IMG/VR virus record: IMGVR_UViG_3300031886_000791
Span: 1-27,800 of that record
Source: a virus
Direction: 5' to 3' (one strand)
Length of the DNA stretch: 27,800 nucleotides
This document shows, in pieces, positions 2,066-19,641 of this stretch. A program made the translations under genes and the position numbers. Positions within the stretch are counted from its first letter, which is position 1; every line of letters starts with the position of its first letter. The notes under the pieces are model-generated. The model did not search any database, was not told the origin of the DNA, and saw only the letters and a list, made by a program, of their open reading frames with translations.

Positions 2066-3052
2066 ATGAAACGTTTATTAACAATTATTAGTATGTTGCT
2101 CATCCTATGTACAAGCATGGTAAGAGCAGATGATATTAAAATTGCCGAGTTAAATTGGCAGTCTGGATCGATGATAGCCAACATTGATGCTTATATATTA
2201 GAACATGGTTATGGACACAATATTGAAATTGTTCCAGGAGGCATCGATGCTACTATTCAATCAATGATGACAACAGGCTCACCTAATATAGTTGGAGAGA
2301 TGTGGTTGACATCGCTCGGTGATAGTGCCCACGAGGCTCTTAACAACGGGTCTCTTGAGTTAGTAGGAGATGGTGTTATAGGTGGTGCTGGCGAAGGCTG
2401 GTTCATTCCAAATTATACGGCAGAAGAATATGGTCTTAATACAATTGAAGATGTATTAGCAAGGCCAGATTTATTTCCACATCCAGAAGATTCTTCTAAG
2501 GGTGGCATAGTAATCTGTCCAGAAGGTTGGAGTTGCAAAGGAAGTAATGAAAACCTATTTAAAGCATTTGATATGGAAGCCAAAGGCTGGAAAGTAATAG
2601 ATCCAGGTTCAGGTACTGGCTTGAATGCTCATTGGGAAGGTGCTGTAACTAAAGGAAAAAGTGCCTTTGGTTATTATTGGACACCTACAGTATTTGTAGG
2701 TCGTTTAAATTTAGTAGGACCTCTTCCTTCTGAAGTAGGATTTGCTGGTGACGATAACTGGACTAACTGTATTGCTTTGAGAGTTGATGAATGTGTTAAC
2801 CCACAAGTATCATCGTGGCCTGTACCTCAGACAGGAACTATCGTTACACCGGAAATTTGTTCTTGTGTAAAGGTTTATTTGGCTTCAAGATCATTTAGCG
2901 GTAGTGTTGTTACCCAAATGTTAGTGTGGGCAGATGATAACCAAGCAACAGCGGAAGAATCTGCTATTCATTTTTTAACCACGTATCCTGAAGTTTGGGA
3001 AACATGGGTAACACCGGAAGTCGCTGGCAAAATTAGTGCTACATTAAATTAA
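2066..3052 (+). CDS. proX: ProX/OpuAC-type periplasmic glycine betaine/DMSP-binding protein
   Basis: This 328-residue protein begins with a Sec signal peptide: MKR, a hydrophobic core, then a likely signal peptidase site after VRA near residue 21. The mature part resembles substrate-binding proteins of the glycine betaine/proline betaine ABC importers. It has conserved tryptophans at W31, W80, W112 and W205 (in GYYWTP), the kind of residues that form the aromatic cage for trimethylammonium or dimethylsulfonium groups. Several cysteine pairs (for example around 151-157) could form disulfides in the periplasm. A clear ribosome site (AGGAG) precedes the ATG. It starts 14 bases after gp46 and is followed at once by the permease, so it is read in the same transcript. 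Substrate choice between glycine betaine, proline betaine and DMSP cannot be fixed from sequence; the DddP-like gene downstream favours DMSP. It is host-derived in type and unusual in a phage. Confidence 0.85.
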   Translation: MKRLLTIISMLLILCTSMVRADDIKIAELNWQSGSMIANIDAYILEHGYGHNIEIVPGGIDATIQSMMTTGSPNIVGEMWLTSLGDSAHEALNNGSLELVGDGVIGGAGEGWFIPNYTAEEYGLNTIEDVLARPDLFPHPEDSSKGGIVICPEGWSCKGSNENLFKAFDMEAKGWKVIDPGSGTGLNAHWEGAVTKGKSAFGYYWTPTVFVGRLNLVGPLPSEVGFAGDDNWTNCIALRVDECVNPQVSSWPVPQTGTIVTPEICSCVKVYLASRSFSGSVVTQMLVWADDNQATAEESAIHFLTTYPEVWETWVTPEVAGKISATLN

Positions 3053-3064
3053 GGGTCATGAACG

Positions 3065-3934
3065 GTGAGTTTCCCATCTTTAGATAGAGAAACAATAACT
3101 GTCCTTAAAAAATCTATTGATAGCACTTTCAGAGAATTTGCTAGTAATTGGGGAGAATGGTTTACAGAACTGCTCTTCCCGGTTCAATGGACACTAATTC
3201 ACTTTGAAAAACTATTACTTGCTACACCTTGGTATGTATTTTTAGGTGTAATAAGTTTATTACTTTGGAAGTTAACACTAAACTGGAAACTAATACTAGG
3301 TTTCTTAATTAGTTTTACCTTAATTGGTCTAGTAGGTATGTGGGACGACACAATGCGAACACTAGCCATTGTTGTTGTCTCAACACTTATTTGTATAGTA
3401 GTTGGTATTCCAATCGGAATATTAATGGCAAAAAGCAATATAGCTCATAGAATTATCTTACCCATACTAGATTTAATGCAAACCATTCCAAGTTTTGTAT
3501 ATCTAATTCCTGTTATAATGTTATTTGGACTTGGCAAAGTTCCAGGCTTAATTGCTATATGTTTCTTTGCTATACCTCCAGTGATTAGATTTACAAACAT
3601 TGGCATTCGAGAAATTAATAAAGATTTAACAGAAACAGCACACGCCTTAGGGTTAAGGCCCATACATATTTTAAGACTTATTGAATTGCCATTAGCAAGG
3701 AATGTTATATTTGGAGGGATAAACCAAACAGTTATGATGGCATTAGCAATGGTTGTTATTGCTAGTATGATAGGTGTACGAGGACTAGGCTCCCAAGTAA
3801 TGAATTCAATAGGCAATGGATACTTAGGTTTAGGGGTAATTAGTGGATTGTCTATTGTTGCTTTAGCAATTATAATGGACAGAACTATACAAGCACATAA
3901 TAAACGCCATGATAAATGGAGGGAAAAGAAATAG
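3065..3934 (+). CDS. proW: ProW-type ABC transporter permease for betaine/DMSP
   Basis: This 289-residue inner-membrane protein has about six to seven hydrophobic segments, from around residue 55 to 271. The cytoplasmic EAA loop that contacts the ATPase is clear at about 187-210 (ETAHALG, then IELPLA), and the family signatures QTIPSFVYLIP and GVRGLG are present. It is the membrane channel for the binding protein encoded just upstream. The start is a GTG at 3065 with AAGGG nine bases before it; the nearby ATG at 3058 is in another frame. The stop is followed directly by the ATG of the next gene. No ATPase subunit (ProV) is encoded in the cassette, so the permease would need a host ATPase. The EAA loop and length look intact, which argues against decay. 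Confidence 0.87.
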   Translation: MSFPSLDRETITVLKKSIDSTFREFASNWGEWFTELLFPVQWTLIHFEKLLLATPWYVFLGVISLLLWKLTLNWKLILGFLISFTLIGLVGMWDDTMRTLAIVVVSTLICIVVGIPIGILMAKSNIAHRIILPILDLMQTIPSFVYLIPVIMLFGLGKVPGLIAICFFAIPPVIRFTNIGIREINKDLTETAHALGLRPIHILRLIELPLARNVIFGGINQTVMMALAMVVIASMIGVRGLGSQVMNSIGNGYLGLGVISGLSIVALAIIMDRTIQAHNKRHDKWREKK

Positions 3935-5356
3935 ATGTTAAAACAATACCAACCACCATTAAGTGATGATCAGATATTTCTAAGTTCATCAACTGAACAG
4001 ATTACTTGGGGCGAACTACACGCAAACCTTGATGCTAAAATCGAAAGATTAAAAGAACACAGCATAGGCCCACACGTTGTTTTTATAATAGCAGAAGATA
4101 ACGTTACAATAGATGACTTTTTATGGATCCTTGCTAGTATTAAAAATGGCGGATCAGCCTCTCAGGCAGATGCTACACAATCTAAAACAGAAATAGATAA
4201 CTTAATAAAATGTTGTAAGGCAAGTTGTATAATACGTTCAAACGAAATACAAATGTTAAATGATCCAAAAGAAACAGGTCCTACAATTTTACACCCTAAT
4301 GAAATATACAGAAATATGACAAGTGGAACCACAGCCAAAGAGTTCTTTGAAATGTATCCATCCTTTTGGGATTTTAAAGAGCATGACGAGGCTATTGGGG
4401 TAGATGGACAAACAATAGTAGGATGTACGACTTGGTCTTTAAATGGTCATTTACTTGCTGTAGCACCTGAATTTACAAAAGATAAAAGGCCATATGTTTT
4501 AGGTACACCAAGACTTACAGCAACGTATAATCCGTATAACTTATTAAGGATGTATCAAGTAGGTGGAGGTTTTCATATATTAAATAGTGGTGACAACGTA
4601 CCAGAAGAAATAAAAAGAGTAAAACCTAATATTTGTATATCATATCCTAATGCTGTTAAAAGAGTAGTTGACTCCTGCCCAGAGGATTTTAATTGGACTG
4701 GTATTGACTACTGGGAGTTTGCTGGAGGGCATACACCAGAAACTATTGTTAGAAATATAGAAAAGAAATTTAAGTTCAAAGCATTATACAATGTAATGGC
4801 AAGTACCGAAGCCGATTGTCACACAAGAGCGGTGTACAAACCCGGAGATCCAATAAAAAACTTTTATGGATTTAGAGAAACAATTCATAATGGTGAATTA
4901 AAACTTGATGAAAAAGGTGTACTTTGGTACAAATATGGAACATTAGATTGGATGACAGATGGCGATAAACTTCGAGATGAAGATGGTATATGGTATTATG
5001 AAGGCAGAGTATTTGATGATGTTATTTTTATGAAAAGTGGTGTTAAAGTTTACACAGGACTAATAGAAGCAGTAGCACTTGAAGTTTCTGGTGTTAAAAA
5101 TGTTGCCAGTTGTGAGAAAGATGAACTTCATTACCTATTATATACTGGAACTGCTAATGCTAATGACGTTGCTAATCATTTTATTAATACCATTCAAGAA
5201 TATAAACAGCCTCATTATATATTTCATGTAACTGAACCACTGTTTTTTAGTGGACATATTAAAGTTCAAAAACGTAAACTACCGGACATTGTTAATAATG
5301 CATCAGTTGATCAAATTATAAGTAAAGTAATTGTAAAGCACCATTCAAAAGTATGA
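3935..5356 (+). CDS. ANL-superfamily adenylating enzyme (acyl-CoA synthetase-like)
   Basis: This 473-residue protein shows the ordered core motifs of AMP-forming ligases. There is a P-loop TSGTTAKE at 129-136 with K135, an A5-like MASTEAD at 288-294, a TDGDKL motif at 341-346 and EGRVFDD at 356-362. The C-terminal lid has several lysines (SGHIKVQKRKL, 439-449), one of which could be the catalytic A10 lysine. The usual P-loop ending PKG is replaced by KEF, and the protein is somewhat shorter than typical acyl-CoA synthetases of 500-600 residues. The enzyme would activate a carboxylate with ATP and usually pass it to CoA. The substrate cannot be read from sequence. Its place between a betaine/DMSP importer and a DddP-like lyase suggests a small acid such as acrylate or 3-hydroxypropionate, or a carnitine-like betaine, as inference only. 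It begins right at the ProW stop; its own stop overlaps the next start (ATGA). Confidence 0.72.
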   Translation: MLKQYQPPLSDDQIFLSSSTEQITWGELHANLDAKIERLKEHSIGPHVVFIIAEDNVTIDDFLWILASIKNGGSASQADATQSKTEIDNLIKCCKASCIIRSNEIQMLNDPKETGPTILHPNEIYRNMTSGTTAKEFFEMYPSFWDFKEHDEAIGVDGQTIVGCTTWSLNGHLLAVAPEFTKDKRPYVLGTPRLTATYNPYNLLRMYQVGGGFHILNSGDNVPEEIKRVKPNICISYPNAVKRVVDSCPEDFNWTGIDYWEFAGGHTPETIVRNIEKKFKFKALYNVMASTEADCHTRAVYKPGDPIKNFYGFRETIHNGELKLDEKGVLWYKYGTLDWMTDGDKLRDEDGIWYYEGRVFDDVIFMKSGVKVYTGLIEAVALEVSGVKNVASCEKDELHYLLYTGTANANDVANHFINTIQEYKQPHYIFHVTEPLFFSGHIKVQKRKLPDIVNNASVDQIISKVIVKHHSKV

Positions 5357-6582: not shown

Positions 6583-7398
6583 ATGGCATTACAAGTAGAA
6601 AAGCATACTGATTTAGAAGTAAAAAACGAAGTCAATAAAATATTAAAACACGGCTACACAATTCATCACGAACAAAATTTAACACAATCTCAATTAATTG
6701 ACTATTGTAGACGTATTGGAGATACTAATGATGACAAAATGTGGGGTGCGAGTTTTAATCCTAAAGATAACCCTGATATAGCAAGAGTAATGCCTGGTGG
6801 TATGTTTGGTGAAACAGAATTACACTGGCATAGCAATGGCACCGTACATCACTTGAGTGAGTTTAAAGAAATACTAATTGCTTTATATTGTAAAGACGAA
6901 TGTGTTGATACGGTGTTTAGTTTATTAAACAATCGAGATGCTTTTTTAGAATTACCCGAAAGCGAAAAAGATTATTGGCGTTCCATTGAAATACAATTAA
7001 ACAACTTCGGGCATGGTATATACGGGTCAGAGGCAGAAGCATTAGATGATCCTAGTTTAGATAATTATAAACCGGTTAGGCACGAAGGTGATGAACGTAT
7101 GTCAGCAGTAAACACACATCCAGTTGACGGCCAAGAGTTTTTATATTGGCAACCACCATTAATAGAAAAAGCGTGGCAAGACGGTAAACCTACAGATGTA
7201 GATGTAGTACGGGAAAAATATAAAAAAACATTAGATAGATCTATATACCAAAATCATTTTGTATTTAAAAAAGGCGATTTTCTTATAATGGATCAGTTAT
7301 ATACGTTACATCGACGCTCACCAATTGTGAATAAGAGTAGAGAATTGTGGCGTGTGGCATTTGATTATACAGAAATAGTTCAGAAATCGCGGCTGTAG
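6583..7398 (+). CDS. TauD/TfdA-like Fe(II)/2-oxoglutarate oxygenase with HxN motif
   Basis: This 271-residue protein aligns by eye with the TauD/TfdA/gamma-butyrobetaine hydroxylase group. The proximal metal motif is W-H83-S-N85-G where the family normally has HxD; the distal histidine is H243 in YTLHRR, and R253/R257 about 10-14 residues later fit the 2-oxoglutarate-binding arginine. The Asp-to-Asn change replaces a carboxylate iron ligand and could mean altered chemistry (compare Fe/2OG halogenases, which lack this carboxylate) or loss of activity. Substrate is unknown; betaines and sulfonates are usual for relatives, which fits the importer upstream. It follows the DddP-like gene by 9 bases, with a TATAAATA box ending 6 bases before the ATG and no good ribosome site. 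It ends the metabolic cassette. Confidence 0.7.
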   Translation: MALQVEKHTDLEVKNEVNKILKHGYTIHHEQNLTQSQLIDYCRRIGDTNDDKMWGASFNPKDNPDIARVMPGGMFGETELHWHSNGTVHHLSEFKEILIALYCKDECVDTVFSLLNNRDAFLELPESEKDYWRSIEIQLNNFGHGIYGSEAEALDDPSLDNYKPVRHEGDERMSAVNTHPVDGQEFLYWQPPLIEKAWQDGKPTDVDVVREKYKKTLDRSIYQNHFVFKKGDFLIMDQLYTLHRRSPIVNKSRELWRVAFDYTEIVQKSRL

Positions 7399-7673: not shown

Positions 7674-8186
7674 ATGCCAAGCCCACAAAAAGCAAAAGGT
7701 TCAGCCTGGGAACGAGATGTCGCGAAATTCTTGTCAGGGTTATATGGTGAATCTTTTATAAGAGCACCAGGATCTGGTGCTTATGTGGGCGGGTCTAATA
7801 AAGCAAGAAAAGAAATATTACACGAAGGGCAAGTAAGAGCCTTTAAAGGAGACATTGTACCTGGACAAAGTTTTCCTAAATTTAATGCAGAATGTAAGTT
7901 TTATAAACAATTCTCATTTCACAGATTGTTACAACCTGAACCACTTCCTCAATTAGAAGAATGGATATCACAACTTATGGATGTAGCAGATCCAGGCGAC
8001 TTCAATATATTAATAATGAAATTCAATCAAATAGGCAAATTTATCGCTATAGAATCAAAGCACAAATCAAAATCAAAAAACTACATAGACTATTGGTCAA
8101 ACACCACAGGCTCTAACTGGCGCATATCAAATTTTGAGGAATTTTTCACAAGAAATTCAGATCTGGTTAAAACATTATGTGCCTAG
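7674..8186 (+). CDS. PDDEXK-type endonuclease-like protein
   Basis: This 170-residue protein has an arrangement typical of small PDDEXK nucleases: an N-terminal helix with E13 (AWERD), then D60 in KGDIVPG, then E73-x-K75 in AECKF, followed by a helix. The N-terminal MPSPQKAKGSAWER and the glycine-rich segment GSGAYVGGSNKARK are conserved-looking. Such proteins cut DNA with two metal ions; possible jobs are junction resolution, host DNA breakdown or repair. I cannot choose between these. It starts 34 bases after the Hc1-like gene and is the last + strand gene before the non-coding RNA-like region. Its stop at 8184-8186 is directly followed by an 11-base sequence that recurs at 8367-8377. Confidence 0.65.
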   Translation: MPSPQKAKGSAWERDVAKFLSGLYGESFIRAPGSGAYVGGSNKARKEILHEGQVRAFKGDIVPGQSFPKFNAECKFYKQFSFHRLLQPEPLPQLEEWISQLMDVADPGDFNILIMKFNQIGKFIAIESKHKSKSKNYIDYWSNTTGSNWRISNFEEFFTRNSDLVKTLCA

Positions 8187-8229
8187 CATAACATACTATT
8201 AACAGCAATTTTTAAAACTATATAGGTAC

Positions 8230-8560
8230 TCTGAAAACATACCCTTGAGGGCACGGATACCCGTGTTCGGATACTGGGTCGTACCAAGTAAAGGCATTAA
8301 CTTTAAGTGCCAAAGGATGAGGCTCTGTGAAACAGATACAACCTCAACGATTAGTATGTAAGATATCATAACATACTGAACGTTCCGTGACTATGCGAAG
8401 GCAGAAGTAGGGGGATAGCGGGTCGCCGCCTCCGTTAGTAATACTAAATCTTCTTGGATATGATGGGTGAGTTACTCAGATGATGACAAACCGTACTTTG
8501 CTCCTAGTGGGCGAAGTATGGGCAAAATATCTAGATGATAACGAAATGTTATTTCGTTAT
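8230..8560 (+). ncRNA. candidate structured non-coding RNA, possibly group I intron-like
   Basis: At least seven hairpins follow one another. The stems are: CACGG 8252-8256 with 8261-8265; a two-part helix TGAGG 8318-8322 with 8342-8346 enclosing CTGT 8325-8328 with 8332-8335; AGTATGT 8353-8359 with 8371-8377; GGGG 8410-8413 with 8430-8433 enclosing GCGG 8418-8421 with 8426-8429; TGAG 8468-8471 with 8475-8478; a 13-bp helix 8491-8503 with 8509-8521 containing three G-U pairs; and a 10-bp helix 8538-8547 with 8551-8560. G-U pairs in the long helix favour RNA from the + strand, and minus-strand transcripts should stop at 8588. The order of helices and a GACTA at 8389-8393 that could pair with TAGT at 8436-8439 recall a group I intron core (P4-P6, P7, P8, P9), but the match is incomplete and no split exons or homing endonuclease are seen. 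The exact ends are guesses. Confidence 0.55.
8538..8560 (+). terminator. possible terminator or 3' end hairpin of the structured RNA
   Basis: A perfect 10-bp hairpin (arms 8538-8547 and 8551-8560, loop GTT) lies at the end of the structured region. The bases after it on the + strand are TAAATAAAAATGTTTT, AT-rich but without a clean run of T, so it would be a weak intrinsic terminator. It may instead stabilise the 3' end of the RNA. Confidence 0.4.
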
Positions 8561-8587
8561 TAAATAAAAATGTTTTGAGCGAAAGCG

Positions 8588-8613
8588 AAAAAACACATCA
8601 ACGAAGTTGATGT
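8588..8613 (-). terminator. intrinsic terminator of the minus-strand baseplate operon
   Basis: Read on the minus strand, an 8-bp hairpin (ACATCAAC / GTTGATGT, arms 8595-8602 and 8606-8613, loop TTC) is followed by G and six T residues (complement of 8588-8593). It lies 12 bases after the stop of the 62-residue minus-strand gene, the right place to end that operon and keep it from running into the structured RNA region. Confidence 0.75.
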
Positions 8614-8625
8614 TATTAATATAAA

Positions 8626-8814
8626 CTAGTGTAAATCTGGATCTCTTCCAAATCCTGGTTTAATTGAACTTACTTCTATTTTTTCTACGATTAATTCCCA
8701 ATGAGGATGATTTATTTTTTCCATATCCACGACTTGCTGGGCTTCTTCTACTGAAAAAACCGTACAATAAACATCTTTGGTTAATTTGTTAACCACGTTA
8801 TATCTTGTGTACAT
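8626..8814 (-). CDS. small hypothetical protein
   Basis: This 62-residue frame reads MYTRYNVVNKLTKDVYCTVF at its start and ends with PGFGRDPDLH. I do not recognise it. It has no signal peptide or membrane segment. The composition (a two-strand-like start, a helix with VEEAQQVVDMEK, then a short acidic-aromatic stretch) looks like a small globular protein. Support for it being real comes from its place as the last gene of a minus-strand operon, 78 bases after the gp51-like gene, and from the terminator just past its stop. Confidence 0.6.
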   Translation of the reverse strand: MYTRYNVVNKLTKDVYCTVFSVEEAQQVVDMEKINHPHWELIVEKIEVSSIKPGFGRDPDLH

Positions 8815-8892: not shown

Positions 8893-9111
8893 TTACACTA
8901 ATGGTAGTTTGGTTTTCTCTGTATTTTTGATATTTTGTTTTATGATTTCGTGTATTTGCTTTCTTTCACTTGGTGACAATGCCATGGCTTCATTGTACGA
9001 TATGCCGCCTCTCATATACCAGGTAGTCTCCAATAAATCTTTTTCTACGGCTTTCGACTCACTGTCAAAATCTTGGAGCAATTTGACAATGTCATCATTG
9101 CCTAGTGCCAA
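8893..9111 (-). CDS. gp51-like baseplate hub assembly protein (tentative)
   Basis: This 72-residue protein contains a helical N-terminus, then TWYMRGGISYNEAMALSPSE and a charged C-terminal helix ending KLPLV. The WYMRGG plus SPxER pattern is one I associate with the short protein next to gp26 in marine T4-like phages, which is often compared with T4 gp51, a factor for baseplate hub assembly. Its start is 5 bases after the gp26-like stop on the same strand, so the two are translated together. The assignment to gp51 rests on size and neighbourhood and is uncertain; that it is a real gene is much more certain. Confidence 0.6.
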   Translation of the reverse strand: MALGNDDIVKLLQDFDSESKAVEKDLLETTWYMRGGISYNEAMALSPSERKQIHEIIKQNIKNTEKTKLPLV

Positions 9112-9116
9112 AAGCC

Positions 9117-10040
9117 TTATCCGAAAAAACTTGAGTTATCTATAGTAAATGGTTGAGTCCATTTCTCTCCACAAGGTGTATTTTTACCTTCCAGGTCAAC
9201 TGTGCCAGCACATTCAAATTGAATAGGATCAATAGTTGATTGATTTCTATTCTCTTCTAAATGCTCTTTAATGGAATTGTAAATGGATCTATCGCAATTT
9301 GCTACAAATTCGCCTATTTGTTTTCGGTCAGTTACTATTGTACCGTTAGTCATTTCAACTTTACCAACAGCCTCCGCAAGAATGCCAACTGAATATACAG
9401 TTAATCGAACAAAAGCATCTTGGAATCTGTCAATTCGATCTTGTTCCGCCATACCTTCGTCAGTAGCAATACCTTGAATCATTCGTTGTTGTTCAAAGTT
9501 TTTTATGGCTTCTTTAGTAACTATTTCGTACGTTAATGGTCGAAAGTGTATTTTTAAGTCACTAACATTAATCAACGGTTTGTATGCTGGAACAGTAACC
9601 TTATCAATAATAGTGCTAAGGTCTAGTTCGTAAGTATTTTCTTCATTACATTTAGGACATACACCCTTAACGTCAGTCATATTACCATATGTAGCAATTC
9701 TAATACTAACAAGAACCATATCCACATCTAAAGCACATAGTTTCCAAGCATTTTTAATTCCTGGAACACAACTTTGAATAACTTCAACTGTAGTAGCACC
9801 GTTCATTAAAGCATCAGGTGTTCTCATTAAGATTTCGTCTTTTGCTGTCATTGGATAAACTGGCAATTCACCATTCTCTGGAATCTCAATCTCACCAGGT
9901 GCATTAAATTTACCTTCACTTGGTAATGAAATATAAATTGCTGGTCTACGAAAATATGCTTGTAATGGGTTAGCCGCTCCCGGCGTTTTTATCTCTGTAG
10001 CCATTTTTGGCATATCATTATTTGTTTCTTTATCATCCAT
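9117..10040 (-). CDS. 26: gp26-like baseplate hub subunit
   Basis: With the start at 10040 this protein has 307 residues (MDDKETNN...). I chose this start because GGAG lies eight bases upstream and a late promoter box lies at 10085-10092; the longer frame up to 10190 would overlap the divergent gene. The body matches the gp26-type baseplate protein of marine T4-like phages: an early segment with LPSEGKF and YPMTAKDEILMRTPDALMNG, then a zinc-ribbon half site C128-x2-C131 (VCPKC) and a second cysteine pair near the C-terminus (FECAGT, PCGEKW). It is longer than T4 gp26 (about 208 residues), as is usual for this group. The role is structural, in the baseplate hub or its assembly. It heads a minus-strand operon opposite to all other virion genes here. 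Confidence 0.78.
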   Translation of the reverse strand: MDDKETNNDMPKMATEIKTPGAANPLQAYFRRPAIYISLPSEGKFNAPGEIEIPENGELPVYPMTAKDEILMRTPDALMNGATTVEVIQSCVPGIKNAWKLCALDVDMVLVSIRIATYGNMTDVKGVCPKCNEENTYELDLSTIIDKVTVPAYKPLINVSDLKIHFRPLTYEIVTKEAIKNFEQQRMIQGIATDEGMAEQDRIDRFQDAFVRLTVYSVGILAEAVGKVEMTNGTIVTDRKQIGEFVANCDRSIYNSIKEHLEENRNQSTIDPIQFECAGTVDLEGKNTPCGEKWTQPFTIDNSSFFG

Positions 10041-10084
10041 GGATTTTTCTCCGCTAAATACAATATAATAGTAGTTAGTCATAT

Positions 10085-10092
10085 TATTTATA
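10085..10092 (-). promoter_or_regulatory. T4-type late promoter box for the gp26 operon
   Basis: The bases TATTTATA are the exact complement of TATAAATA, the T4-type late promoter recognised by the gp55/gp33 system. Its distance of 45 bases from the gp26-like start suits a short leader. On the other strand TATATAAT at 10097-10104 could serve the tape-measure gene, so this 78-base gap may be a two-way late promoter. Confidence 0.6.
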
Positions 10093-10118
10093 TGAGTATA
10101 TAATGGTGAAATGAAAAC

Positions 10119-12806
10119 ATGGCAATAAGAATTAATACAGATAATAATGAAATCGAAATCAGTGATGTAGCAACAGAAGACACCCTTCACGACTTATTAA
10201 TAGCAGTTCAAAAACTTTCTGGGGAGAAAGCAACTGGAGAGGCCAAGTCTCAAGCCAAAAAACAAACTGAATATATCAAGAAAAACGTCGACGCGACAAA
10301 AAATCTTAGCCTTTCATTAAAAGATTGGTCAGGAAACTTTGATGATACCATGGAAGATCTTGATAAATCTATGACGTCTAGAGGAAAAGCAATAGCCAGT
10401 GCTTTAGGAAATATTGTAAAAAATACAGGTAATGTAATAAGTGATCTTATTAGAGGTCCTGCTAGTTTTGATACATTAGGTAGGGCTATTCAGTCAGGAG
10501 CCACAGCATTAGGAGATGGCTTAGGAGGTATGGCAGACAGTTTCCAAGTTCTTGGAACAAAATTGCCTATGGTTGGATCAGGTATAAAAATGCTTGGAGC
10601 CGCCGCAGGAGCGGCCGCTATGGCAGTTGCCGCCTACGCCCAAAATTTAATGGACGGTTTTGTAGCATTAAGTCAAAGTGGAGCAAATTACAATTCTGAT
10701 ATAATTAGGACATCGGCACAAATACATGGCTTAGGCTTAACAATGAATGCCTTTACACAGATTGTTCAAACAAATGCCCAAGGGTTAGCACAATTTGGTG
10801 GTTCAGTTTCACTTGGTGCTAAAAGATTTGTAGAATTAGCAAGTGTAATGAGAAGCGATTACGGCGGAAGTCTTTATGCTTTAGGTTTAACTTATGACGA
10901 ACAAGCCGAACAATTAGCCAAGTATACACAAACCCAGTCAAGAAATACTGCTTTTCAAAATATGAGTTATCAGCAACAGAGTGTACTGTTTAAAGATTAT
11001 ATTAGTGATTTAAACACATTAGTAGGACTAACAGGTAAAAGTAGGCAACAACTAGCACAAGAACTGGCTCAAAATGATTTAAGAGCAGATGCTAATATTA
11101 GATTACAAGGTGCTACAGTTGAAGCTCAAAAGGCATTACAATTAGTTTTTAGTACAGCAGGACAAGATTCAGCAATTTCACAGATATTATTAGCAGGTGT
11201 GGCTGGTAAAGATCTAGCACTTGAGATGGCCGCTGGTAACCAGACTATTAAGAGTTTTGTAGCAGGTAATAGTGAAGCGGCACAAAAATTACGAGATTTA
11301 GGTGATGCTGTAGCAACTGGTACAATAGATCAGGATGAATTCAAAGAAGGAATAAGAGCCATATTACCAAGTATCGCGGCAAGTGGTAAAGAATTTGAAG
11401 GTTTATATGGTATAAGTGATGTTGCTACTGTAATGACACAAGCGGCTAGTGATGTTCAAAAATTACAAGTACAATTTCAAAATTTAGGTAAAGCAGTTGG
11501 AGATAGTGACAGCAAATCAGCCGACGGCGTTGGTGGACAAATCCTACTAATGGCGGCAACATTAACAGACTTCCAGAACCAGATTCAATCAGGCATCGAA
11601 GGAGGCATCTCCGACTGGTCAGCATCATTATTTCCAGAAGACGAGAGACCTATAGGCGAGATAATACAAAGTAGGATGGACTCGTTATCCGTTTGGGGTG
11701 ATAAACTTCAAACTCAACTTGACAAGATTTTAACATCTTTTACCAATTTCTTCACTCAATTTGAAATAGTTGCTAAAGCACCATGGGATTGGTTAATGGG
11801 TGGTACAAGTACTAAAGAATTACGAAAACAAGCAAATCAAATTGTTGAAGGAAGAGGTGGATATGACTCTTACGGGATGGAAGGTGTCATGAGTGGAGCA
11901 GAAATACAGACAGCGATCTCAAAAATGAGTGGCCCAGAATTACACGCCGCTATGAATGCATTGAAATTTGATAGTTCAACAGCAGATGGTAAGGTAAGCG
12001 AAAAAGGTATTATCCATTATATACAAAGCCTTCGATCACTATCAGCGATGGCTCAAGCAAATGAACTCTCTGCTTCGTCTACATCTCTTGCCCCTGGTGT
12101 AACAGATCATGCTTTTGGTAGTTTTGAAGAGTTAGTTAAATCTTTAAATACAGGTTTTAAAGGTAAACAAACAATAGATCTTGGTGGTGGTCACAGTACT
12201 ATAATTGATAGGATTCCTCAGGTTAAGTCTCAATTAGCAAAAGCGTACAATGCCGGACAAGGTGATATTGCTGATGCGGCCTTTGAACAATTTAAGCAAT
12301 TTCTCCATTCAACTATTCCAGGCTATAAAATGGGTATGACTTGGGAAAGTTATATGCAAGATAATAACATTGATGGTTATTCTGTAACAGCCGCACAATC
12401 AGTAATTAGAGATAAGTTACACGCCATTCAAAGATGGAATACTGGTAAGTTCCCTGGCCAGGGAACAGATGGTGGAGCACTGGTTAGTGCTAAAAAATTA
12501 CAATACGGAGGTTATACCAGCCCAATTATTCCACAAATTATTAATGAAGGTGGTATGGGAGAGTGGTTTACACCAAATACAGCAGGTACAATGACACCTA
12601 ATTCAGAATTAGCAACAGCAAGTGGTACTATGGGTGTAATTAGTAATATTCAAGAATCTAATAGACTTTTAGGTCAGGTAATTAAATTAGCCAGCCAAGG
12701 TAATCAACTCTCTGAAGCATTTGGTAGTACATCTATTAATATTTCTAAAGATATATCCAAAACTAATACTAAAATGTTAAGGGCCTATTCAGACATTAAT
12801 ACTTAA
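10119..12806 (+). CDS. large tail protein, tape-measure-like
   Basis: This 895-residue protein is largely helical and rich in Ala, Gln, Ser and Gly, with heptad-like stretches in the first 130 residues and one strongly hydrophobic segment at about 157-175 (GAAAGAAAMAVAAYAQ). It has no enzymatic motif. Size, hydrophobic segment and helical make-up fit a tape-measure or tail-length protein such as T4 gp29, and its position beside a gp26-like baseplate gene and just before the portal gene agrees. Residue identity with gp29 cannot be judged by eye, so the name is by analogy. The start is preceded by a poor ribosome site (GTGAAATGAAAAC). A stretch at about 11510-11670 uses more C-ending codons than the rest of the gene, which could mark a recombined segment. 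Confidence 0.6.
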   Translation: MAIRINTDNNEIEISDVATEDTLHDLLIAVQKLSGEKATGEAKSQAKKQTEYIKKNVDATKNLSLSLKDWSGNFDDTMEDLDKSMTSRGKAIASALGNIVKNTGNVISDLIRGPASFDTLGRAIQSGATALGDGLGGMADSFQVLGTKLPMVGSGIKMLGAAAGAAAMAVAAYAQNLMDGFVALSQSGANYNSDIIRTSAQIHGLGLTMNAFTQIVQTNAQGLAQFGGSVSLGAKRFVELASVMRSDYGGSLYALGLTYDEQAEQLAKYTQTQSRNTAFQNMSYQQQSVLFKDYISDLNTLVGLTGKSRQQLAQELAQNDLRADANIRLQGATVEAQKALQLVFSTAGQDSAISQILLAGVAGKDLALEMAAGNQTIKSFVAGNSEAAQKLRDLGDAVATGTIDQDEFKEGIRAILPSIAASGKEFEGLYGISDVATVMTQAASDVQKLQVQFQNLGKAVGDSDSKSADGVGGQILLMAATLTDFQNQIQSGIEGGISDWSASLFPEDERPIGEIIQSRMDSLSVWGDKLQTQLDKILTSFTNFFTQFEIVAKAPWDWLMGGTSTKELRKQANQIVEGRGGYDSYGMEGVMSGAEIQTAISKMSGPELHAAMNALKFDSSTADGKVSEKGIIHYIQSLRSLSAMAQANELSASSTSLAPGVTDHAFGSFEELVKSLNTGFKGKQTIDLGGGHSTIIDRIPQVKSQLAKAYNAGQGDIADAAFEQFKQFLHSTIPGYKMGMTWESYMQDNNIDGYSVTAAQSVIRDKLHAIQRWNTGKFPGQGTDGGALVSAKKLQYGGYTSPIIPQIINEGGMGEWFTPNTAGTMTPNSELATASGTMGVISNIQESNRLLGQVIKLASQGNQLSEAFGSTSINISKDISKTNTKMLRAYSDINT

Positions 12807-17834: not shown

Positions 17835-19007
17835 ATGTCAGATACATTAATTGAAAGCCGTTGGGATGACACTAAATCGGCTCTTATGGAAGGTTTAGAA
17901 GGTAATTCTAAAACTACTATGAGTGTTGTTTTAGAAAACACCCGTAACTACTTAAAAGAGGCGGCAACTGCTGGCGCGACATCTGCCGGTAACGTTGCTA
18001 CTCTAAACCGTGTGATACTACCAGTGATCAGACGTGTTATGCCTACAGTTATTGCTAACGAAATCGTTGGCGTACAACCTATGCAAGGTCCTGTAGGTCA
18101 AATTCATACTCTAAGAGTGAGATATGCTGATACAACCACTGGCGGTGCTACAAACATCGCGGCTGGTGATGAAGCATTATCTCCGTTCAAAATTGCTGAA
18201 TCTTACTCAGGTAACGACGGTAACCCAGGAGCAGGTGCTTCTACGGCTACTTTAGAAGGTGCACCAGGTAAGAGATTGAACATTCAAATTTTAAAACAGC
18301 CGGTAGAAGCGAAAACTCGTAAACTATCAGCTCGTTGGACATTTGAATCAGCTCAAGATGCCCAATCAATGCATGGCATTGACGTTGAAGCAGAAATTAT
18401 GGCCGCATTGGCTCAAGAAATAACTGCTGAGATCGACCAAGAAGTTCTTACTTCTTTAAGATCACTAGCGGCTACTGAAGAAACCTATAACCAGGCTTCT
18501 GTAAGTGGTACTGCTACATACGTTGGTGACGAACACGCGGCATTGGCTGTTTTGATCAATAGAGTTGCTAATAAGATCGCACAAAGAACAAGACGTGGTG
18601 CTGGTAACTGGGCTGTGGTTTCTCCACAAGCACTAACAGTACTTCAATCTGCTTCTACTTCAGCGTTCGCAAGAACAACTGAAGGTACATTCGAAGCACC
18701 AACAAACAACAAGTTTGTAGGTACATTGAATGGCGCTATGAAAATTTACGTTGACACTTATGCGGCTGATGATTCAGCAGTATTAGTTGGATACAAAGGT
18801 TCAAGCGAAGCGGACGCGGCGGCGTTCTATTGCCCATACGTACCTCTAATGTCTTCAGGTGTTGTTTTAGACCCTGATACACTAGAACCAGTCGTTGGCT
18901 TTATGACAAGATATGGATATGTTGAGTTAACTAACACAGCATCTTCACTTGGTAATGCTGGTGACTACTTGGGCGAAATTGCTATGTCAAACATCTCGTT
19001 TGCTTAA
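17835..19007 (+). CDS. 23: major capsid protein gp23
   Basis: This 390-residue protein is a gp23-type HK97-fold major capsid protein. The N-terminal part (to about 50) with VVLENTRNYLKEA is the region removed by gp21 in T4. Typical segments follow: NRVILPVIRRVMPTVIANEIVGVQPM, then GPVGQIHTLRVRY, then EAKTRKLSARWTFESAQD and the C-terminal block with FYCPYVPLMSSGVVLDP. It is shorter than T4 gp23 (521 residues), consistent with lack of the inserted surface domain. A strong ribosome site (AAGGGAGA) precedes the ATG, and a strong terminator follows the stop, as expected for the most abundant virion protein. Codon use is richer in GC than in its neighbours, which suits high expression. Confidence 0.96.
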   Translation: MSDTLIESRWDDTKSALMEGLEGNSKTTMSVVLENTRNYLKEAATAGATSAGNVATLNRVILPVIRRVMPTVIANEIVGVQPMQGPVGQIHTLRVRYADTTTGGATNIAAGDEALSPFKIAESYSGNDGNPGAGASTATLEGAPGKRLNIQILKQPVEAKTRKLSARWTFESAQDAQSMHGIDVEAEIMAALAQEITAEIDQEVLTSLRSLAATEETYNQASVSGTATYVGDEHAALAVLINRVANKIAQRTRRGAGNWAVVSPQALTVLQSASTSAFARTTEGTFEAPTNNKFVGTLNGAMKIYVDTYAADDSAVLVGYKGSSEADAAAFYCPYVPLMSSGVVLDPDTLEPVVGFMTRYGYVELTNTASSLGNAGDYLGEIAMSNISFA

Positions 19008-19080: not shown

Positions 19081-19179
19081 TTTGTCACAAATCGTGCCAC
19101 AATTGGTGTGGACTTATGCTGAATTGACCCACAGCGTAGCGGATAGAACCCGCATCGGACTTCTATATAGGAGAAAACA

Positions 19180-19641
19180 ATGGGAAGACCACTTAATAAA
19201 AGATTCTTTGGCGTTGAAGGCGTAGGCCCAACTGCTGGAGGAACAGAAATCAAAGTAAACTTTCATAACGGTTCTGCCGTTAAAGAAGGTTATATTGTAA
19301 AACAAAAAGGATCTAAAAGATTCGTAGTTGAAGAAATCGGAACTGGTGGTACATTTACTTGTACACTTGCTACAGGAAAATTACCTGCGGCTTTGGCATC
19401 AGGTGAGATGTCGATTTCAGTACAAGGTGCTGATTCAGAAACTTATGGAGTAAGCAAAATTTCAGGACATAAAGTTACATTGGCCCAACCAAGTGCTACA
19501 GGTTCAAATGCCTTAGACGGAACAACGGTAGAATGGGCACTAACTGGCGCCGCGGCGACTGGTGTTGGTAGAATGGAAGAAGCAGGTGATGATAACACAT
19601 TAGTTGGTACAGACGACGACGATCTTGTAGAAGACGCATAA
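19180..19641 (+). CDS. putative virion protein next to the capsid gene
   Basis: This 153-residue protein starts MGRPLNKRFFG and ends in a very acidic tail (DDDDLVEDA). Between them is a beta-rich, Gly/Thr-rich sequence with VNFHNGSAVKEGYIVKQKGSKRFVVEE. I recall similar short proteins with the MGRPLNKR start in marine T4-like phages, where they are regarded as structural, but I cannot name the function. A strong ribosome site (TAGGAGA) and flanking terminators on both sides mean that it may form its own late transcript, which fits an abundant virion or capsid-decorating protein. Confidence 0.6.
   Translation: MGRPLNKRFFGVEGVGPTAGGTEIKVNFHNGSAVKEGYIVKQKGSKRFVVEEIGTGGTFTCTLATGKLPAALASGEMSISVQGADSETYGVSKISGHKVTLAQPSATGSNALDGTTVEWALTGAAATGVGRMEEAGDDNTLVGTDDDDLVEDA

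Follow-up and report, generated by a model that had tools for sequence, protein, structure and literature searches.

The locus and its gene-free gap

The stretch of viral DNA analysed here (the window, 27.8 kb) belongs to an uncultured T4-like phage. It carries T4-type genes for an SbcC-like nuclease subunit, portal, head protease, major capsid and baseplate hub proteins, and its major capsid protein is about 69-70% identical to those of jumbo phages (e.g. PA5oct and Phosso). The same window also holds a TauD/TfdA-family dioxygenase gene (PF02668) at 6583-7398 and a freshwater-2 RNA (RF02980, 69.3 bits) at 19096-19182, directly 3' of the major capsid gene (17835-19007). The initial annotation had drawn attention to a gene-free gap between converging genes, and indeed no open reading frame (ORF) of at least 60 amino acids is found in 8187-8625. 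The stop codon of the endonuclease gene that precedes the gap lies 38 nt upstream of the RNA core described below, while a small gene like the ORF at 8893-9111 adjoins the RNA in many relatives (the kinship of the window's own ORF being judged by eye). The features of the locus are as follows.

7674-8186, plus strand: PDDEXK_15 / RusA-like phage endonuclease gene (PF24608, E 1e-23; phrog_244, E 5e-15)
8195-8224, plus strand: leader with conserved ACATACTATTAACA and linker, nearly invariant in five close relatives
8225-8541, plus strand: structured RNA core of about 317 nt (folding z -4.69 for 8187-8590; covariation in 43 relatives)
8225-8285, plus strand: 5' domain with helices P1, P2 and P3 (pairing in relatives)
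8319-8345, plus strand: P5 (8319-8322/8342-8345) with inner P5b (8324-8328/8332-8336), from 43 relatives
8347-8383, plus strand: long hairpin P6 (90.6% paired in its outer and 70.6% in its inner part, 43 relatives)
8387-8391 with 8422-8426, plus strand: predicted pseudoknot stem a (97.6% paired over the 43 relatives, with as many as six pair types)
8403-8454, plus strand: long-range helix P8 (8404-8407/8450-8453), enclosing stem b (95.9% paired; AU, UA and GC)
8410-8414 with 8429-8433, plus strand: predicted pseudoknot stem b, GGGGG/CCUCC (100% paired in 43 relatives)
8474-8484, plus strand: motif M1, ACUCAGAUGAU, identity-coupled to M2
8491-8521, plus strand: P9, 13-bp hairpin between M1 and M2 (83% paired, both-side changes in 8 of 13 pairs)
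8529-8539, plus strand: motif M2, AUCUAGAUGAU, identity-coupled to M1
8540-8558, 8571-8596 (GAGCGAAAGC) and 8596-8612, no strand assigned: downstream hairpins, the last two present in close relatives
8893-9111, minus strand: small ORF of 72 amino acids, converging on the RNA (ORF list)
9117-10190, minus strand: T4-type baseplate hub protein gene, converging on the RNA (PF12322, E 5e-13; phrog_150)

The location first proposed for the RNA, 8230-8560, is right, but its bounds are better placed at about 8225-8541, possibly from 8195. The leader at 8195-8224, where no sigma70 match is found on the plus strand, may belong to the RNA or be a promoter. The hairpin at 8596-8612 resembles a terminator for the minus strand (site 8613-8595).

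Fold, strand and pseudoknot

The plus strand of 8187-8590 folds at -117.6 kcal/mol, as compared with -91.5 +/- 5.6 kcal/mol for shuffled sequences (0 of 100 reaching this value; z -4.69), and the minus strand of the gap gives a z of -3.8. The proposed fold was then compared with shuffled and slid versions on an alignment of 43 window-type relatives. In this alignment 79.3% of the cells are paired, both-side changes occur in 301 cells against 118 +/- 9 in shuffles, and the covariation score is 0.295, against 0.124 +/- 0.005 for shuffled versions (0 of 500) and at most 0.103 for slid ones. Related phages thus do carry compensatory changes in these stems, which, together with the folding energy and the recurrence of the RNA in other phage contigs, bears out the structured RNA proposed for the gap. 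Conserved G-U pairs are numerous; read from the opposite strand they would be A-C, so the RNA lies on the plus strand, the template that had been considered likely. It is almost certain that this is a real and widespread plus-strand structured phage RNA.

In the 5' domain, P1 (GGUAC 8225-8229/GUACC 8281-8285) becomes GCUAC/GUAGC in close relatives, a compensatory change in which the second pair is C-G in three of them and G-C in two. P2 (8241-8244/8276-8279) is 98.1% paired in the 43 relatives, with both-side changes in all four pairs, and P3 joins 8252-8256 to 8261-8265. P4, P7 (8436-8446) and the interior of P3 have poor support in this alignment when the wide family is considered. P5 corresponds to the helix already noticed around 8318-8346 and is 98.8% paired in the 43 relatives, with GC, UA, CG and AU pairs, while P5b is 75.8% paired; P6 shows both-side changes in nine of ten pairs. 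The 13-bp helix with three G-U pairs at 8491-8521, here P9, is present as first described, and the outermost pair of P8 (8403-8454) finds no support in relatives.

The nested helices reported at 8410-8433 call for a partial revision. The GGGGG/CCUCC helix stands, but as part of a pseudoknot that is completed by the pairing of 8387-8391 with 8422-8426. Stem a changes from GUGAC/GUCGC to GAGAC/GUUUC and GAAAC/GUUUC in close relatives, again by compensation. An H-type pseudoknot made of stems a and b, overlooked in the initial annotation, is therefore strongly supported by the pairing patterns of the relatives. The GCGG/CCGC hairpin nested in 8410-8433 is almost invariant and competes with the pseudoknot.

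Relatives, known RNA classes and gene neighbourhood

Relatives were gathered via the neighbouring nuclease gene (38 loci). The gap is 74-83% identical in close relatives, and L010, L012 and L019 carry a more distant version of the RNA. A search of viral contigs for the pattern of the two motifs (M1, ACUC-NR-AUGA-D, and M2, AUCU-NR-AUGA-D, which flank P9 about 55 nt apart) matched at least 120, and at least about 97 distinct sequences of sufficient length among the matches listed are members of the family. With a covariance model of the 3' domain, additional copies came to light that escape the pattern (L013-L015, about 40 bits, E about 1e-6), and overall the RNA recurs in at least about 100 IMG/VR contigs. 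No DNA match to the RNA was found among isolated phages, and the twin motif was not found in six checked isolates carrying a homologous nuclease; a search of plasmids for the RNA gave none. A bacterial scan (one genome per species) returned 33 pattern matches, nearly all of which look like chance in coding DNA. One of them, in an alphaproteobacterial MAG contig (L186, 4833-4998), is borderline at 20.8 bits (E 0.014) with AG/AG motifs, and could stem from a prophage or from chance. With six isolates lacking the twin motif and at most one doubtful bacterial case, the RNA appears to belong to uncultured phages.

Other loci hold sequences of related interest. In L044 and L046 a strongly diverged RNA lies at a similar place on the minus strand (about 7339-7369; 12 bits by the model), where, by eye, a pseudoknot-like GUCUU/AAGAC with GGGG/CCUC is kept and a different twin motif, GGUAAU, apparently occupies both motif positions. 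About 100-450 bases 3' of the nuclease gene, L008, L009 and L011 have another structured-looking sequence with GUUGC/GCAAC and CUAC/GUAG; since the model gave nothing above about 8 bits there, the third RNA type seen by eye is not claimed. Sinorhizobium phage Phosso (L203) has a gene-free, hairpin-rich gap of about 1 kb (2986-4001) upstream of a Holliday junction resolvase gene, in which the twin motif is absent.

Rfam 15 was scanned with the window, L010 and L012 at the gathering score and at E = 10. The gaps gave only chance matches, except for RF01718 (Polynucleobacter-1) in L012, at 112 bits; the models of GOLLD, ROOL and OLE were unmatched. Cryo-EM complexes of such ornate RNAs (GOLLD and ROOL) are described in PMC12286853. 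The view that the RNA is no tRNA, tmRNA, RNase P RNA or riboswitch agrees with ARAGORN and Rfam, neither of which gave a match. The group I intron core that had been hinted at is not sustained: group I models give no match at E values up to 10, no P7-like pair is conserved, and there are no flanking exons, the RNA sitting between complete converging genes with no gene split. The GACTA of the suggested GACTA/TAGT pair (8389-8393) is replaced by GACTT, AACTT or GACAT in relatives; it is not conserved because its bases lie largely in the pseudoknot strand 8387-8391.

Polynucleobacter-1 is listed as a motif of Burkholderiales from fresh water and estuary, marked 'y' for likely cis-regulatory (Weinberg et al. 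2010, PMC2864571), and among the mostly openly accessible papers searched this survey alone was found to name it. Within sisters that share the 3' domain of the window (L012, L050, L096, L114, L115, L055, L133, L129, L080 and L094) RF01718 scores 62-121 bits and makes up the 5' third of the RNA. These type I RNAs differ from the window (type II), whose 5' domain is of another type: RF01718 is unmatched in 8100-8700 up to E = 10 (gathering score 37 bits). The pseudoknot, M1, P9 and M2 lie outside RF01718, are common to both types and align in a full-length homology between the window and its Polynucleobacter-1 sister. The window and L012 have the same nuclease gene class upstream, and model R1 scores them at 105.9 and 126 bits, respectively (both being in its training set). 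Neither the 5' domain of the window nor the shared 3' domain has a match in Rfam 15, and no description of the 3' domain was found in a search of mostly openly accessible papers.

The usual gene order is an SbcC-like gene, the nuclease, the RNA, and then the converging small and hub genes. Among readable copies in the matches listed, the upstream ORF belongs to a SegE-like GIY-YIG cluster in 65 of 94 and to PDDEXK_15 in 15 of 94, the rest being varied. Extra genes separate the nuclease from the RNA in L013-L015, L083, L065, L073 and L146, and in loci with such insertions the RNA remains at the hub-gene junction. In L135, L140 and L156 the preceding ORF lies on the strand opposite to the RNA, with a 10/12 sigma70 match, TTGACC-17-TATACT, upstream of the RNA in L156. 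No neighbouring gene is fixed; given the varied upstream genes, the inserted genes and the opposite-strand ORFs, the RNA is not a cis element of a single gene. The opposite-strand ORFs and the L156 sigma70 site further indicate that it can probably stand alone. L156 also has, near the RNA (2864-3435), a tRNA and a tmRNA of betaproteobacterial or permuted type, a hint of a betaproteobacterial host.

As two nuclease clusters unrelated to each other, of which one is SegE-like GIY-YIG, account for 80 of the 94 upstream genes in the matches listed, the RNA could belong to a mobile nuclease element, either as part of an RNA-guided nuclease or as a degenerate intron with its homing endonuclease. This is very improbable, because the RNA holds the hub-gene junction when the nuclease is more distant (L013-L015), the nuclease occurs without the RNA in six isolated phages, matches to group I or group II introns are not above chance, and no gene is split.

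A 3' UTR of the operon mRNA at the converging junction, acting as a knot that blocks 3'-to-5' exonucleases or as the source of a processed 3'-UTR sRNA, has more to be said for it. In most copies no more than tens of bases separate the start of the RNA from a stop codon on its own strand, the gene order converges, and a general upstream promoter signal is absent. Indeed, sigma70-like sites upstream of all copies are no commoner than in shuffles, so the source of most copies may be the operon transcript, a longer mRNA, or phage promoters outside the model of the scan. Nevertheless, the RNA is kept where the preceding ORF faces the opposite way, and mere protection needs no pair of motifs that preserve each other's sequence, which makes this explanation rather unlikely.

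Identity coupling of the twin motifs

In the members listed, which were picked by a pattern requiring equal N and R in M1 and M2, the NR pair is always AG/AG, GG/GG or GA/GA, and D is equal in the two motifs with one exception (L113). Matches with unequal NR, seen before the equality filter, do not resemble the RNA. The normalised mutual information between the motifs is 1.0 for N and R, whereas columns beyond the motifs and their immediate flank reach at most 0.42 with them. A tree made without the motif columns requires N to change about 23 times, and in each of the 13 supported independent pairs the state of M2 goes with that of M1 (p 2e-4); for D, eight pairs are concordant, none is opposed and one is without change. 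L013-L015, found without the pattern, serve as an out-of-sample example, and their state (AA/AA and A/A) is a new one. The UG-R element 5' of each motif is coupled in part only.

Watson-Crick pairing between M1 and M2 fails as a cause, because it predicts complements and the coupling is of identical letters. Gene conversion between the short repeats is a less likely though possible cause, as the neighbouring ACUC/AUCU difference persists. The coupling does not track residues of the upstream nuclease, and neither a third motif copy nor a co-varying complementary site was found in the RNA, nor a consistent one in the phage records. A weak excess of the complementary 7-mer in the flanks (48 vs 38, 3/300, among 15 tests) was discarded, the sites being scattered and partly homologous codons. 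Since M1 and M2 change together, the sequences suggest that one partner is gripped by both, which would be the simplest cause of the coupling.

Repeated motifs that suggest multivalent binding recall the sponge RNAs of the CsrB/RsmY type. Unlike these, the RNA has two motifs only, and many copies have AGA or GAA in place of the GGA core, so CsrA is unlikely to be the partner. GOLLD and ROOL are large, pseudoknotted, phage-linked RNAs with a conserved 3' and a variable 5' part. The RNA of the window recalls them in size, pseudoknot, phage setting and its variable 5' and conserved 3' domains, but it is smaller and has no sequence or structure match to them in Rfam 15. To our knowledge, twin motifs have not been described for GOLLD or ROOL. 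An RNA-only oligomer of this kind, with the motifs as equivalent subunit contact surfaces, is improbable, as a complementary element co-varying with the motifs is absent within the RNA and no such family matches it in Rfam.

For a stand-alone folded phage non-coding RNA whose two motifs bind one partner in trans, the chances appear about even. We infer that such an RNA is made as a discrete transcript, acts in trans and is bound by a partner. About 320-350 nt would be made from the plus strand at the end of the SbcC-like/nuclease operon, probably from an own promoter in some phages. The 3' half would fold into the H-type pseudoknot, followed by a recognition motif before and after a rigid hairpin, and M1 and M2 would each hold one copy, or one of two identical faces, of the same fast-evolving partner, for which a protein is the likeliest candidate and a nucleic acid a less likely one. 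Two motifs for the same partner would make the RNA a bivalent scaffold or decoy. The complete proposal is put forward tentatively, as somewhat more likely to fail than to hold: a widespread class of phage RNA, so far undescribed, in which the two 3' motifs co-evolve by identity as a consequence of each binding the same fast-changing partner, the RNA being a bivalent scaffold or decoy, and of which Rfam holds no more than a 5' fragment of one subtype.

Polynucleobacter-1, an orphan motif of 2010, becomes one subtype of a larger phage RNA, which gains a 3' domain with a pseudoknot and a second subtype of 5' domain. The near-strict identity coupling of two motifs about 55 nt apart represents an unusual kind of covariation, and it leads to the prediction that a single partner is bound twice.
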